Source of the DNA: Chromatiaceae bacterium
GTDB lineage: Bacteria > Pseudomonadota > Gammaproteobacteria > Chromatiales > Chromatiaceae
Assembly (NCBI GenBank): GCA_007693535.1
Contig: REDK01000130.1
Coordinates: 1 to 50,297 of the forward strand
Length of the DNA: 50,297 nt
Direction of reading: 5' to 3'
Part shown: positions 1 through 50,297 of the stretch, one piece after another
How positions within the stretch are numbered: position 1 is the first letter of the stretch
Layout: each line of letters starts with the position of its first letter
Made by a program: the position numbers and the translations under genes
Notes under the pieces: model-generated
Databases searched by the model: none
Told to the model about the DNA's origin: nothing
The model's input: only the letters and a program-made list of their open reading frames with translations

Positions 1-3000
1 CCGCGAAGTTGCGGCCGGTGGGACCCAGACAGACCATGATGCCGCCGGTCATGTATTCGCAGCCGTGGTCGCCGACCCCCTCCACCACCGCGGTTGCACC
101 CGAGTTGCGCACACAGAAGCGCTCGCCGGCAACCCCGCGGAAGAAGACTTCGCCCGTAATCGCGCCATAGAGTAGGGTGTTGCCGACGATAATATTATCC
201 TCAGCCCGCGCGATGCCGGAATGCGCCGGCGGATAGATGATGATACGACCACCGCTCAGACCCTTGCCGACATAATCGTTGGCCTCGCCCTCCAATTCAA
301 CGGTCACGCCGCGGGCCAGCCAGGCCCCGAAGGATTGGCCGCCGATGCCGCGCGCCTTGATGTAGATGCTGTCGTCCGGCAGCCCGGCATGGCCATAGCG
401 CTCGGCCACGCGCCCGGAGAGCATGGCGCCGACCGTACGATGGTAGTTCCTGACCTCGACCTCGATCTGCACCGGCTCGCCGCGCTCCAGCGCCGGCTCG
501 GCCTGACGGATCAATTCATGATCGAGTGCCCCCTCCAAGCCGTGATCCTGGGGCTCGCAGTTGTAAGTCGCGGCGGGCGGCAGGCCAGGGCGCTCGGCAT
601 CGGGCTTGGCCAGGATGCGTGAGAAGTCCAGGCCCTTCGCCTTCCAGTGGTCGATGGCACGGCGCATCTCCAGGCGGTCGCTCTGACCGATCATCTCGTT
701 CAGTGTCCGGAAGCCTAGGCGGGCCATCAAGGCGCGGACCTCTTCAGCGATAAAGAAGAAGAAGTTGATGACATGCTCGGGTTTGCCGGTGAATTTCTTG
801 CGCAGCTCCGGGTCTTGGGTGGCCACCCCCACCGGGCAGGTGTTCAGATGGCATTTGCGCATCATGATGCAGCCAGCAACGATCAGCGGCGCGGTCGCGA
901 AGCCGAACTCATCGGCCCCGAGCAGGGCGCCAATGACGACATCGCGGCCGGTACGCAATCCGCCATCCACCTGCACGGCAATGCGCCCGCGAAGGTGGTT
1001 GAGGACCAGCGTCTGATGTGTCTCGGCCAGCCCGATCTCCCAGGGTGAACCGGCGTGTTTGATCGAGGTGAGCGGTGAGGCGCCGGTCCCGCCATCGTAA
1101 CCGGCGATGGTGACATGGTCGGCATGGGCCTTGGAGACCCCGGCCGCGACCGTGCCGACCCCGATCTCCGAGACCAGCTTGACCGAGACCCGCGCCCGCG
1201 GGTTGACGTTCTTCAGGTCATGGATCAGTTGCGCCAAGTCCTCGATCGAGTAGATGTCGTGGTGCGGCGGCGGCGAGATCAGGCCAACGCCCGGCGTGGA
1301 ATGGCGCACGCGGGCGATGCGGGCATCGACCTTGTGGCCGGGCAACTGGCCGCCCTCGCCGGGCTTGGCGCCCTGGGCGATCTTGATCTGCAGGTCGTCA
1401 GCATTGACCAGGTATTCGGTGGTGACGCCGAAGCGCCCGGAGGCGACCTGCTTGATCGCCGAGCGTTCCGGGTTCATCGAGCCATCCGGTAGCGGAGTGT
1501 AGCGCTCCGGTTCCTCGCCGCCCTCGCCGGTATTGGACTTGCCGCCGATGGCGTTCATTGCCCGCGCCAGGGTGGAATGGGCCTCGTGGCTGATCGAGCC
1601 GAACGACATGGCCCCGGTGGCAAAGCGTTTGACGATCGCGCTGGCGGGCTCTACCTCGTCGATCGGGATCGGCGTCGCCGCCCATTTAAACTCCATCAGG
1701 CCACGGAAGGTCAGCAGCCGCTCGCTCTGCTCGTCGATGAGGCGGGAGAATTCGGCAAAGGTCCTAGCGTCGTTGGCACGAGTGGCATGCTGGAGTTTGG
1801 AGATCGTGTCTGGCGTCCAGACGTGATCTTCGCCGCGCAGGCGGAAGGCGTAGTCACCGCCCGGGTCCAGATGCCGACGCAGGATCTCCTCGCCGCTATA
1901 GGCGCGGGTGTGCCAGAGCACCGCCTCGCGGGCGACCTCTTCCAGCCCGACGCCCTCGACCATGCTGGCGGTGCCAGTGAAGTACTTGGCGATGAATTCC
2001 CGATTTAGGCCGACGGCATCGAAGATCTGTGCCCCACAATAGGACTCCAGCATCGAGATACCCATCTTGGACATGACCTTGAGCAGCCCCTTGCCGACTG
2101 CCTTGATGTAGCGCTGTTGGGCCTCTTCGAAGCTCAGCGGCCCGCTTCCAGCCTGGGGCAGCCGCGGCAGCAGCGACTCGATGGTATCGAAGGCCAGGTA
2201 GGGATTGATCGCCTCAGCGCCATAGCCTTCTAGGGTGGCGAAATGATGGATTTCCAGCGCCGCACCGGTTTCGACCACGATCCCGGAACTGGTGCGCAGC
2301 CCGCGGCGAATCAGATGATGATGGACCGCCGAGGTGGCGAGCAGGGCCGGGATCGGGATGAAATCGGCGTTCGTCTTACGATCCGACAGGATCAGGATGT
2401 TGTAGCCGTCGAGCACCGCCTGCTCGGCCTGCTGGCAAAGCCGCTCCAGCGCCGGAGCCATCCCGGCGGCACCCTCGGTGGCCGGGTAGACCATGTCCAG
2501 GGTGCGGGTGCGGAAGGCCCCGCCGAAGCTGTATTCGATGTGACGGATGCGTTCCAGATCCTGATTGGTCAGCACCGGCTGTGGCGTCTCCAGACGCCAG
2601 TGCTGCCCGGCCTCGTTCAGGCCCAGCAGGTTAGGTCGTGGACCGATCATGCACACCAGCGACATGACCAGCTCCTCGCGGATCGGATCGATGGCCGGAT
2701 TGGTGACCTGGGCGAAGTTCTGCTTGAAGTAGGTGGAGAGATGCTTGGAGCGCGATGACAACACCGAGGGCGGATTGTCGGCACCCATGGAGCCGACCGC
2801 CTCTTGCCCGGTCATGAGCATCGGCGTCAGCAGGAAGCGGATATCCTCCTGTGTATAGCCGAAGGCCTGCTGGGCATCGAGCAGGGTCGCCGCGTCCGGC
2901 GACATCGGGCCGACGTTGCTCGGTAGGTCTTCGAGACGGATCTGTGTCCGTTCTAGCCACTCACGATAAGGCCGCGCACTGGCCAGCACCGACTTGATCT

Positions 3001-15600: not shown

Positions 15601-15624
15601 AAAAAAACCCCGCCAGAGGCGGGG
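15601..15624 (-). terminator. Strong intrinsic terminator for a minus-strand transcript
   Basis: On the minus strand a perfect 7-base stem CCCCGCC/GGCGGGG with a 3-base loop is followed directly by seven T residues. This is the clearest intrinsic terminator in the window. No recognised gene ends at it, which implies an unrecognised minus-strand transcript coming from about 15940. A second perfect dyad, GAGCTCC/GGAGCTC, lies 20-35 bases before it at about 15645-15660. Confidence 0.8.
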
Positions 15625-48802: not shown

Positions 48803-49011
48803 GGCAGGCAGTGGGCGGTAGCGGGGCAAAGCGGGCAAGTCTACCCCGACACCCGAATGGGTGACCACAGCCGCGCGCTGGAGGCAGCGCTGACGCACGA
48901 GCCGAGAACTGCTGATGGGAGAAGGGATCCAGGGGTAGGCGGATAAATTTCTTTCGCAAAAGGGCTAGACACGGCGATTTTGGCCAGGAATAATCGAGCG
49001 TGATCCGATCC

Positions 49012-49030: not shown

Positions 49031-49951
49031 ATGTCCGAGACCGAGACGGTGCTGTTGCGCCATGGCAGTTGTGAGCTGCGTGGCGAGGACGTTGCGTACA
49101 TCCGCGGTTTTCTCGCCGACTTTCCGACGCTCTCGCGTACCGAGACGATCCTGACGCTGGCCGAGCATCTGGGCTGGACCACCCCGGCGGGTGGCGCCCG
49201 CAGCGCGGCGGCCACGCAACTGCTCGAGCAGCTCGAGCAGACCGGTGCGATTCGGCTGCCTGCGCTCGATTCGCGCTACCAGACGACGGTGGGCAAGAAG
49301 CTGCAACCACGCAAGGCGGTACACGTGAACGCGGGGGTGCCGATTGGCTGCAGCCTGGCGGAGCTGGCGCCGGTGCGGCTTCGCGCCCTCACGGCAGCCG
49401 AGGAGCAGGCGCGCTTTGACGCCTACCTGCGGACGTTCCACCCGCTCGGCTACGCGAAGCCGTTCGGTTGCTTCGCGCGCTACTGGATCGAAGCCGCCGG
49501 CCAGCCGCTGGGTGCGATCCTGCTGGGCGGCGCGGCGCGTGCGCTGGCACCGCGAGATCACTTCATCGGCTGGAACGTACACGTGCGCCGTCGCAACCTG
49601 CCATGGGTGGTGGGCAACAGCCGCTTTCTGATCTTTCCCTGGGTCCGGGTGCCGCACCTGGCGAGTCACGCGCTGGCGCAGCTCGCGCGCCAACTGCCCG
49701 AGGATTGGGCGCGGCGCTGGTCGTTTCGGCCGCTGCTGCTGGAGACCTTCGTCGACCCCGCCCACTACTGCGGCAGCTGTTACCTCGCCGCCGGCTGGCA
49801 GCCACTCGGCCACACCAGCGGCCGCGGCCTCGCGCGCCCCGGCCACCGCTATCGCAGCACGCCGAAACTGATTCTCGTCAAGCCGCTGGCGCACCCCTGG
49901 CGCGAGCGCCTGTGTTCCGCTTCCCTGGCGACCGGAGTATCCCTCCCATGA
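49031..49951 (+). CDS. DUF4338 (DruA-like) protein of an insertion element
   Basis: Protein of 306 residues from the DUF4338 family, which includes DruA of the Druantia antiphage system. The conserved core is PLGYAKPFGCFARYWI, ARALAPRDHFIGWNVHVRRR, VVGNSRFLIFPWVRVPHLASHAL, LLETFVDPAHYCGSCYLAAGWQPLGHTSGRG. The N-terminal third (about 20-75) is helical and contains ADFPTLSRTETILTLAEHLGW. Here it is not next to other Druantia genes but overlaps a transposase gene, so a role in transposition is more likely than defence. Its stop overlaps the next start (ATGA). Confidence 0.85.
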   Translation: MSETETVLLRHGSCELRGEDVAYIRGFLADFPTLSRTETILTLAEHLGWTTPAGGARSAAATQLLEQLEQTGAIRLPALDSRYQTTVGKKLQPRKAVHVNAGVPIGCSLAELAPVRLRALTAAEEQARFDAYLRTFHPLGYAKPFGCFARYWIEAAGQPLGAILLGGAARALAPRDHFIGWNVHVRRRNLPWVVGNSRFLIFPWVRVPHLASHALAQLARQLPEDWARRWSFRPLLLETFVDPAHYCGSCYLAAGWQPLGHTSGRGLARPGHRYRSTPKLILVKPLAHPWRERLCSASLATGVSLP

Positions 49952-50297
49952 GCACGTCCTCCCGCGTTGTGCGGCGCAAGGCCGCCGCCGAACTCCACGG
50001 TAAAAAAAACACCCGCAGCACGCCCTGCGCGAGGCCCGCGCGCGGGCGGGCCTGAACCCCGCCACGCGGCCGGGTCCGGCCAACCACCGCAGCCCGCTGT
50101 CGACGGTCGCGGACGAGCGCGCGGCGCGTACGGACACCGTTGCCGAGCAGATGCGGGTGATCCGCGCGCAGTTGCCCACGCTGCTGCAGCGCCTGGCGAA
50201 GATCCCCGACCCGCGCCAACCCGGCAAGGTCAAGCATGCGCTCACGAGCCTGATGCTGTTTGGTCTGCTGTGCTTCGTGTTGCAGCTCAGTTCGCGG
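49948..50297 (+). CDS. Transposase-like gene with predicted -1 frameshift, 3' part outside window
   Basis: ATG 49948 opens MSTSSRVVRRKAAAELHGKK and reaches a stop (TGA) after 35 codons. A -1 shift at the A8 run (50002-50009), which contains A AAA AAC (50004-50010) in the correct phase, joins it to a long frame. That frame reads HPQHALREARARAGLNP...MRVIRAQLPTLLQRLAKIP, then DPRQPGKVKHALTSLMLFGLL, running off the right edge. The DPRxPxKVKHxLTxLxLxG pattern is typical of the N-terminal domain of ISNCY-like and related DDE transposases. Transcriptional slippage on A8 is an alternative. A plain disabling frameshift is also possible. Confidence 0.7.

Follow-up and report, generated by a model that had tools for sequence, protein, structure and literature searches.

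The most common known route to the fused transposases of insertion sequences (IS) is -1 ribosomal frameshifting, and IS with runs of eight or nine A's (A8 or A9) have been described earlier as well (PMC1088944). In IS1447, the A-run slips in both directions, at about 16% each, and seven A's suffice; ten-A runs were found in 8 of 52 and eight-A runs in 9 of 52 cDNA clones, with 0 of 30 among DNA clones (PMC6211511). A survey of frame transitions reported that orthologues with ribosomal frameshifting keep one direction and that families with two directions point to transcriptional realignment, with the caution that orthologues may use different recoding mechanisms (PMC3711429).

A comparable arrangement is present in a stretch of 50,297 nucleotides of DNA from a Chromatiaceae bacterium, which is called the window here and makes up the whole of contig C144 in a draft genome of 4.16 Mb and 186 contigs. 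The feature is an IS that is bounded by terminal repeats, measures about 2.8 kb, and carries a two-gene operon. The reading that we favour, and regard as reasonably probable, is that of an IS with a DruA-domain gene and a Tn5-like DDE transposase, the two frames of which are joined by RNA polymerase slippage at a run of seven to nine A's. Slippage in IS is known, and a DruA-coupled, Tn5-like family appears to be a new example; among the papers listed in literature searches on slippage and on ISAs1, none dealt with the family described here.

Organization of the element

The region singled out in the first-pass annotation of this DNA is part of a larger element, which has its left end at 48885 (Table 1). 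Element ends were set by comparing copies within genome G076, within G107, and between G015 and G119, and these comparisons gave lengths of 2807, 2809, 2807, and 2812 bp; L134 of G105 measures 2818 bp. The terminal repeats of the relatives start with CAGCCCTGACGCA or CAGCCCTGAAGCA. Perfect 9-bp target duplications were found at 8 of the 11 copies assessable at both ends (L131, L133, L137 to L141, and L144) and were absent at the other three (L132, L134, and L145). L135, which was not assessable, and the truncated L142 were left out of this count.

The window ends within the transposase gene because the contig ends there. Its final 55 bases recur at positions 12714-12768 of contig C151, in which a 410-aa open frame continues the window transposase and is followed by the right end. 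Since the same 9-mer, CGCTGGAGG, stands on both sides, the 3' part of C151 looks like the right half of the window's element. Together, the window part and the C151 part measure 2829 bp. A second left end is joined to the transposase 3' part in C151 (12703-14184, L006) at the 8-mer CACGAGCC. As the right flank carries the 9-mer of the window's left end, this join may be an assembly effect or a real deletion derivative or rearrangement.

Table 1. Features of the element in the window (positions 1 to 50,297)
Feature	Position	Strand	Remarks
Presumed 9-bp target duplication, left copy CGCTGGAGG	48876..48884	.	Same 9-mer after the right terminal repeat in C151
Left terminal inverted repeat CAGCGCTGACGCACGA	48885..48900	+	Right repeat TCGTGCGTCAGCGCTG in contig C151
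DruA-domain (DUF4338, GNAT-like) gene, first of the element	49031..49951	+	306 aa ORF; Pfam PF14236 85.4 bits
Transposase zero frame: N-terminal segment to the run, then out-of-frame tail	49948..50055	+	35 codons plus stop
A8 run, proposed slippage site	50002..50009	+	A7-A9 in eight further lineages
Transposase body, -1 frame, cut by the contig end	50010..50297	+	Continues in contig C151 (L006)

The first-pass annotation had proposed that two transposase frames are joined by a -1 shift at the A8 run, that the heptamer A AAA AAC lies there in the correct zero-frame phase, and that a DruA-like gene ends in an ATGA overlapping the transposase start. In the window, all of this was borne out. The transposase ATG (49948-49950) overlaps the TGA of the DruA-like ORF (49949-49951), so that the ATGA spans 49948-49951. 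From this ATG, the zero frame reads MSTSSRVVRRKAAAELHG-AAA-AAA-AAC, with the heptamer at 50004-50010, and it stops at 50053-50055 to give a product of 35 aa. The body frame, at -1, is closed by a TAA at 50001-50003; its first lysine codons follow directly, with no further stop up to 50297. When the two frames are joined at 50002-50009, the transposase would comprise 511 aa and matches DDE_Tnp_1_assoc with 41.5 bits, against a cut-off of 32.3. The A8 run is the sole A- or T-run of eight or more in the 50,297 bases, and the A content of the window predicts 0.010-0.017 A-runs of this length on this strand. The only other A-run of six or more in the window is an A7 at 15601-15607.

None of the libraries searched has a curated name for the transposase family, which appears to be Tn5-like. 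Four relatives compared with NCBIfam scored at best 22.4 bits for IS1380 (cut-off 180) and 13 for ISAs1 (cut-off 70), the C151 transposase part scored 13.3 for IS1380 (cut-off 180), and no curated NCBIfam IS family reached its cut-off. A model of the in-frame relative L045, which is of low confidence (pLDDT 55.9), had Tn5 transposase as its top five Foldseek matches and a "transposase inhibitor" as the sixth (E 1e-8 to 4e-7). By sequence, the PDB contained no match for the transposase.

Distribution and frame pattern among relatives

Matches were found in 21 of 194 genomes in the family search and in 29 of 210 in the order search, counts that include the window's own genome plus distant or partial matches. 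A single scan of genome contigs returned 34 loci, many of which are copies in one Accumulibacter genome. The wider samples, in which each count includes the genome on which the sample was centred, had matches in 10 of 369 genomes for the class, 2 of 398 for the phylum, 1 of 3 for the family of G404, 1 of 1 for the order of G229, 1 of 62 for the order of a Hydrogenovibrio genome, and 3 of 150 for the family of an Accumulibacter genome. No additional full-length member came from these samples (class, phylum, and four further ones). The viral contigs gave 21 pattern matches, none of them confirmed, the phage collection contained no relatives, and the plasmid collection held three distant matches only, all below 26% identity.

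From these loci, 17 dereplicated lineages were obtained, the window included. Loci identical around the site were dropped before the count; there, L010 equals L041 (Halochromatium salexigens), L011 equals L038 (Lamprobacter modestohalophilus), and L009 equals L040. Loci with a missing or disrupted 5' end (L015, L061, L085, L087, and L100/L109) were dropped as well. The ATGA overlap of the transposase ATG with the preceding TGA is present in 17 of 17 lineages. The ORF that ends at the ATGA has at least 300 aa in 12 of them and is shorter, broken, or cut by a contig end in L018, L021, L042, L058, and L063.

The first-pass annotation had suggested a search of other copies for a conserved A-run with both frames, and the pattern proved to be recurrent. 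An A7-A9 run near codon 20, accompanied by mismatched frames, occurs in 9 of the 17 lineages, which is the configuration of two coding frames meeting at a conserved A- or T-run of about seven or more that serves as the test for transcriptional slippage in IS. The remaining eight lineages (L012, L013, L018, L021, L043, L045, L058, and L062) lack a run at the site, and a single frame passes through it uninterrupted; in L018, an A5 lies slightly further downstream. The frame is thus broken at the run in 9 of 9 run-bearing versus 0 of 8 run-less lineages (p = 4e-5 in Fisher's exact test, and 0.002 once close relatives are merged to give 6 versus 5), although both tests are rough, as the lineages were treated as independent though related. 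If run lengths were random, all nine lineages would be out of frame with p 0.026, and six with p 0.088, so the lack of in-frame runs is not strong evidence when taken alone.

The direction of the shift differs between lineages. It is -1 in five, namely the window (A8), L042 (A8), L063 (A9), L014 (A9), and L016 (A9), and +1 (or -2) in four, namely L009, L010, L011 (A8 each), and L039 (A7). A tree of 17 transposase rows, to which L044 (identical to L013) was added and from which L021 was left out, separates the nine run-bearing lineages from the rest by a branch that has a support of 80/86 and is present in 76% of bootstrap trees. The row of the window has a long branch and its placement is less sure. 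If the run has one origin, the run-bearing lineages would have diverged to less than 60% identity while out of frame. A sequencing error was considered and rejected as the source of the break; an error in the window only is insufficient, as breaks at runs of seven to nine A's occur in nine lineages from different genomes.

Proposed transcriptional slippage and competing explanations

According to the proposed mechanism, RNA polymerase would slip at the A-run, so that a minority of transcripts would have A's added or missing. Unslipped RNA, when translated from the ATGA, would give a peptide of 24-35 aa, and the transposase of about 510 aa would come solely from slipped RNA of the right phase. 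Such a dependence on slippage would keep the transposase scarce. Recoding in cells, its transcriptional nature, the coupled translation of both genes, and the limiting of transposition as its purpose are what we infer from these patterns, and the transposase is probably expressed by slippage. As both shift directions occur among orthologues (5 versus 4 lineages), the family falls on the transcriptional side by the criterion of the frame-transition survey (PMC3711429). Several observations count against slippage, however. A body-frame ATG is located just upstream of the run in L009, and decay elsewhere is seen in L063 and L016/L031. The A7 of L039 and the A8 runs are also short for slippage, since selection against slippage was seen mostly from nine A's on in the earlier study (PMC1088944).

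Under a programmed -1 ribosomal frameshift of the kind known from IS1 and IS3, ribosomes would slip back by one base at the heptamer A AAA AAC, and a small fraction of them would make the fused transposase. The heptamer is in phase in the window and in L042, A AAA AAG stands in its place in L014/L016, and the direction fits 5 of the 9 lineages, for which ribosomal slippage at either heptamer would also do. A proven A_AAA_AAC case in an IS is noted as having no established stimulator (PMC4066793). A conserved direction would be expected of ribosomal -1 frameshifting, but 4 of the 9 lineages need the opposite one. The heptamer is not conserved overall, and the downstream RNA, folded without pseudoknots, is no more stable than shuffled sequences in three of the four members folded (z -0.44 and 0.85 for the window, -0.47 for L010, and 1.19 for L016); L042 is mildly structured (z -1.56). 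Two stretches of upstream RNA showed no excess structure (z 0.75 and 1.25). We consider it unlikely that ribosomes make the shift, although they may do so in the -1 members. The claim of a -1 programmed ribosomal frameshift holds for the window as far as the phase of the heptamer is concerned, and is not supported for the whole family, with four lineages in the opposite direction, run lengths of A7-A9, and a heptamer that comes and goes.

Poly-A runs mutate easily. Replication slippage at the run could cause phase variation, or the elements could be decaying, in which case the sequenced copies would be off-states or dead. Run length differs between lineages, and decay outside the site is seen in some copies. 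The frame of L063 is broken at one more place, that of L016/L031 of G105 is broken downstream, and so is that of the run-less L018 and L021. On the other hand, no in-frame member was found among the nine run-bearing lineages, the out-of-frame copies L131, L133, and L144 are flanked by perfect target duplications, and both sides of the run are constrained between relatives. These points make phase variation or decay rather improbable, in our estimate.

This constraint can be followed in pairs of run-bearing relatives; the pairs share members, the window is in neither set, and L063 was left out of the set for the body. Over the 17 N-terminal codons, 8 of 9 pairs have a pN lower than pS when read in the zero frame, the exception being L014/L016 with a single difference, and pN exceeds pS in 9 of 9 pairs when the same DNA is read in the two other frames. 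Over the first approximately 50 body codons past the run, pN is below pS in 8 of 8 pairs. Both the N-terminus and the body thus look constrained in these pairs. In G076, three full copies that are 98.9-99.5% identical all share A9, with no stop in the DruA gene or in the body, which again speaks against phase variation or decay. Synonymous/non-synonymous differences between these copies are 0/0, 3/0, and 3/0 in the N-terminus, 3/1, 6/7, and 9/8 in the body, and 5/5, 6/8, and 1/5 in DruA, and 349 non-coding bases are identical among the three. Given the ratios in body and DruA and the invariant non-coding bases, constraint within G076 is visible at the N-terminus only. Perfect 9-bp target duplications flank two of the three G076 copies and also L144, a copy with A8.

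In a separate observation, L134 and L135 of G105 are approximately 99% identical over 2.7 kb, and both carry a downstream break in the transposase frame (L016/L031), which would fit a broken copy that was mobilized in trans or duplicated.

Alternatively, the body could have a start of its own that is translationally coupled to the stop of the short frame, and the N-terminal segment would be dispensable. The short frame does end inside the beginning of the body, and in L009 the body frame contains an ATG just ahead of the run. In the window, however, the first possible body-frame start (ATG, GTG, or TTG) beyond the TAA lies at 50151, by which point 47 codons of the conserved region have passed, and the eight other run-bearing lineages have no body-frame ATG around the run (in a scan for ATG only). 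Moreover, the eight run-less lineages carry this N-terminal segment and the body in one uninterrupted frame. A separate start for the body is consequently very improbable.

The first-pass annotation had named two kinds of evidence that would speak against its view, namely uninterrupted frames in intact relatives and a run length that varies with no fixed phase. Both were observed, the former as the eight run-less single-frame lineages and the latter as A7-A9 runs with two directions. They weaken the -1 version, the place of which is taken by polymerase slippage and not by decay. If recoding is kept in a clade while the slip direction flips, selection would be acting on slippage itself, and the members of this clade are directly testable.

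The DruA-domain partner gene

With the Pfam DruA model PF14236, which has a cut-off of 27 bits, the window protein scores 85.4 bits; four further partner proteins of the family (L010, L045, L043, and L009) were scanned and reached 87-122 bits. DUF4338 has been termed a GNAT domain (PMC10853773). GNAT enzymes make up most of the top fold matches of a low-confidence model of the window protein (pLDDT 62.3), and these matches include phage Mu Mom; none of the Foldseek matches was significant (best E 0.29), and the best Z was 7.1. A sequence search of the PDB gave one chance match for the DruA protein.

The first-pass annotation had connected this gene to defence, and that link turned out to be weak. 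The PADLOC DruA model gave 14.7 bits for the window protein, 22.2 for the protein encoded on contig C65, and no match for L010. Druantia is recognized by DruA plus other Druantia proteins, and the only other gene in the element is the transposase. A Druantia match in PADLOC was likewise absent from the eight flanking genes, four in the left flank and four in the right flank on C151; right-flank genes matched the other PADLOC models mad2 (79 bits) and LeoC (15.6).

A search with PF14236 found a match in 10 of 28 related genomes and returned 20 loci. Directly downstream of the DruA-like gene, 9 of the 20 have a gene with a transposase domain: IS66 in L149, L151 (C65), L152, and L156, Tnp_DNA_bind, which we take to be Tn5-like, in L147, DDE_Tnp_1_assoc in L159, and the window's own transposase family in L153, L157, and L158. 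The DruA-like gene of L146 precedes an AstA gene, and the ten others are partial, weak, or without a clear downstream transposase. With several transposase families downstream at these nine loci, the DruA-domain partner appears, as judged from gene order, to be a recurring accessory of transposons and not a component of a defence system. In the window's own genome, contig C65 carries a DruA-domain gene (114 bits; L007, 1073-1954, minus strand) that overlaps the start of an IS66-type transposase (1-1083, minus strand).

The recurrent pairing with IS66, Tnp_DNA_bind, and DDE_Tnp_1_assoc suggests a frequent role for DruA as an accessory of transposons, and this would alter the interpretation of "DruA" annotations as defence genes. 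A link between DruA and transposases was not found in the titles or abstract openings of the literature searched. More tentatively, it is conceivable that the transposase of this clade has been out of frame throughout a long evolution in which the length of the run drifted and the required direction flipped, so that dependence on polymerase slippage was itself selected. The DruA/GNAT protein would, on the same reading, be a coupled transposition accessory of several unrelated transposase families and a possible source of the DruA of defence systems.

Comparison with known systems

The DruA of Druantia shares the PF14236 domain with the window gene, which differs by its setting in an IS and by its weak PADLOC score. 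Tn5 transposase (4dm0, 1muh) provides the best fold matches of L045 (E 1e-8), at an identity of 12-14% and with low model confidence. Clusters of transposase genes with frame transitions combine +1 and -1 in one family, as observed here, and were taken as evidence of transcriptional realignment; DUF4338 has 0 occurrences in the main text of that survey (PMC3711429). IS from Deinococcus and Nostoc keep a run among copies, with a length of 8-10, that fuses two frames (PMC1088944). Unlike in the window's family, a DruA partner is not mentioned for these A8/A9 elements in the part of the paper available. The IS1447 group of the IS3 family is likewise split at A7-A9, slips in both directions, and needs only A7 (PMC6211511). 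Unlike IS1447, which has the OrfA/OrfB organization of IS3, the window's family breaks approximately 20 codons into the gene, appears to be Tn5-like, and has a DruA-domain partner.
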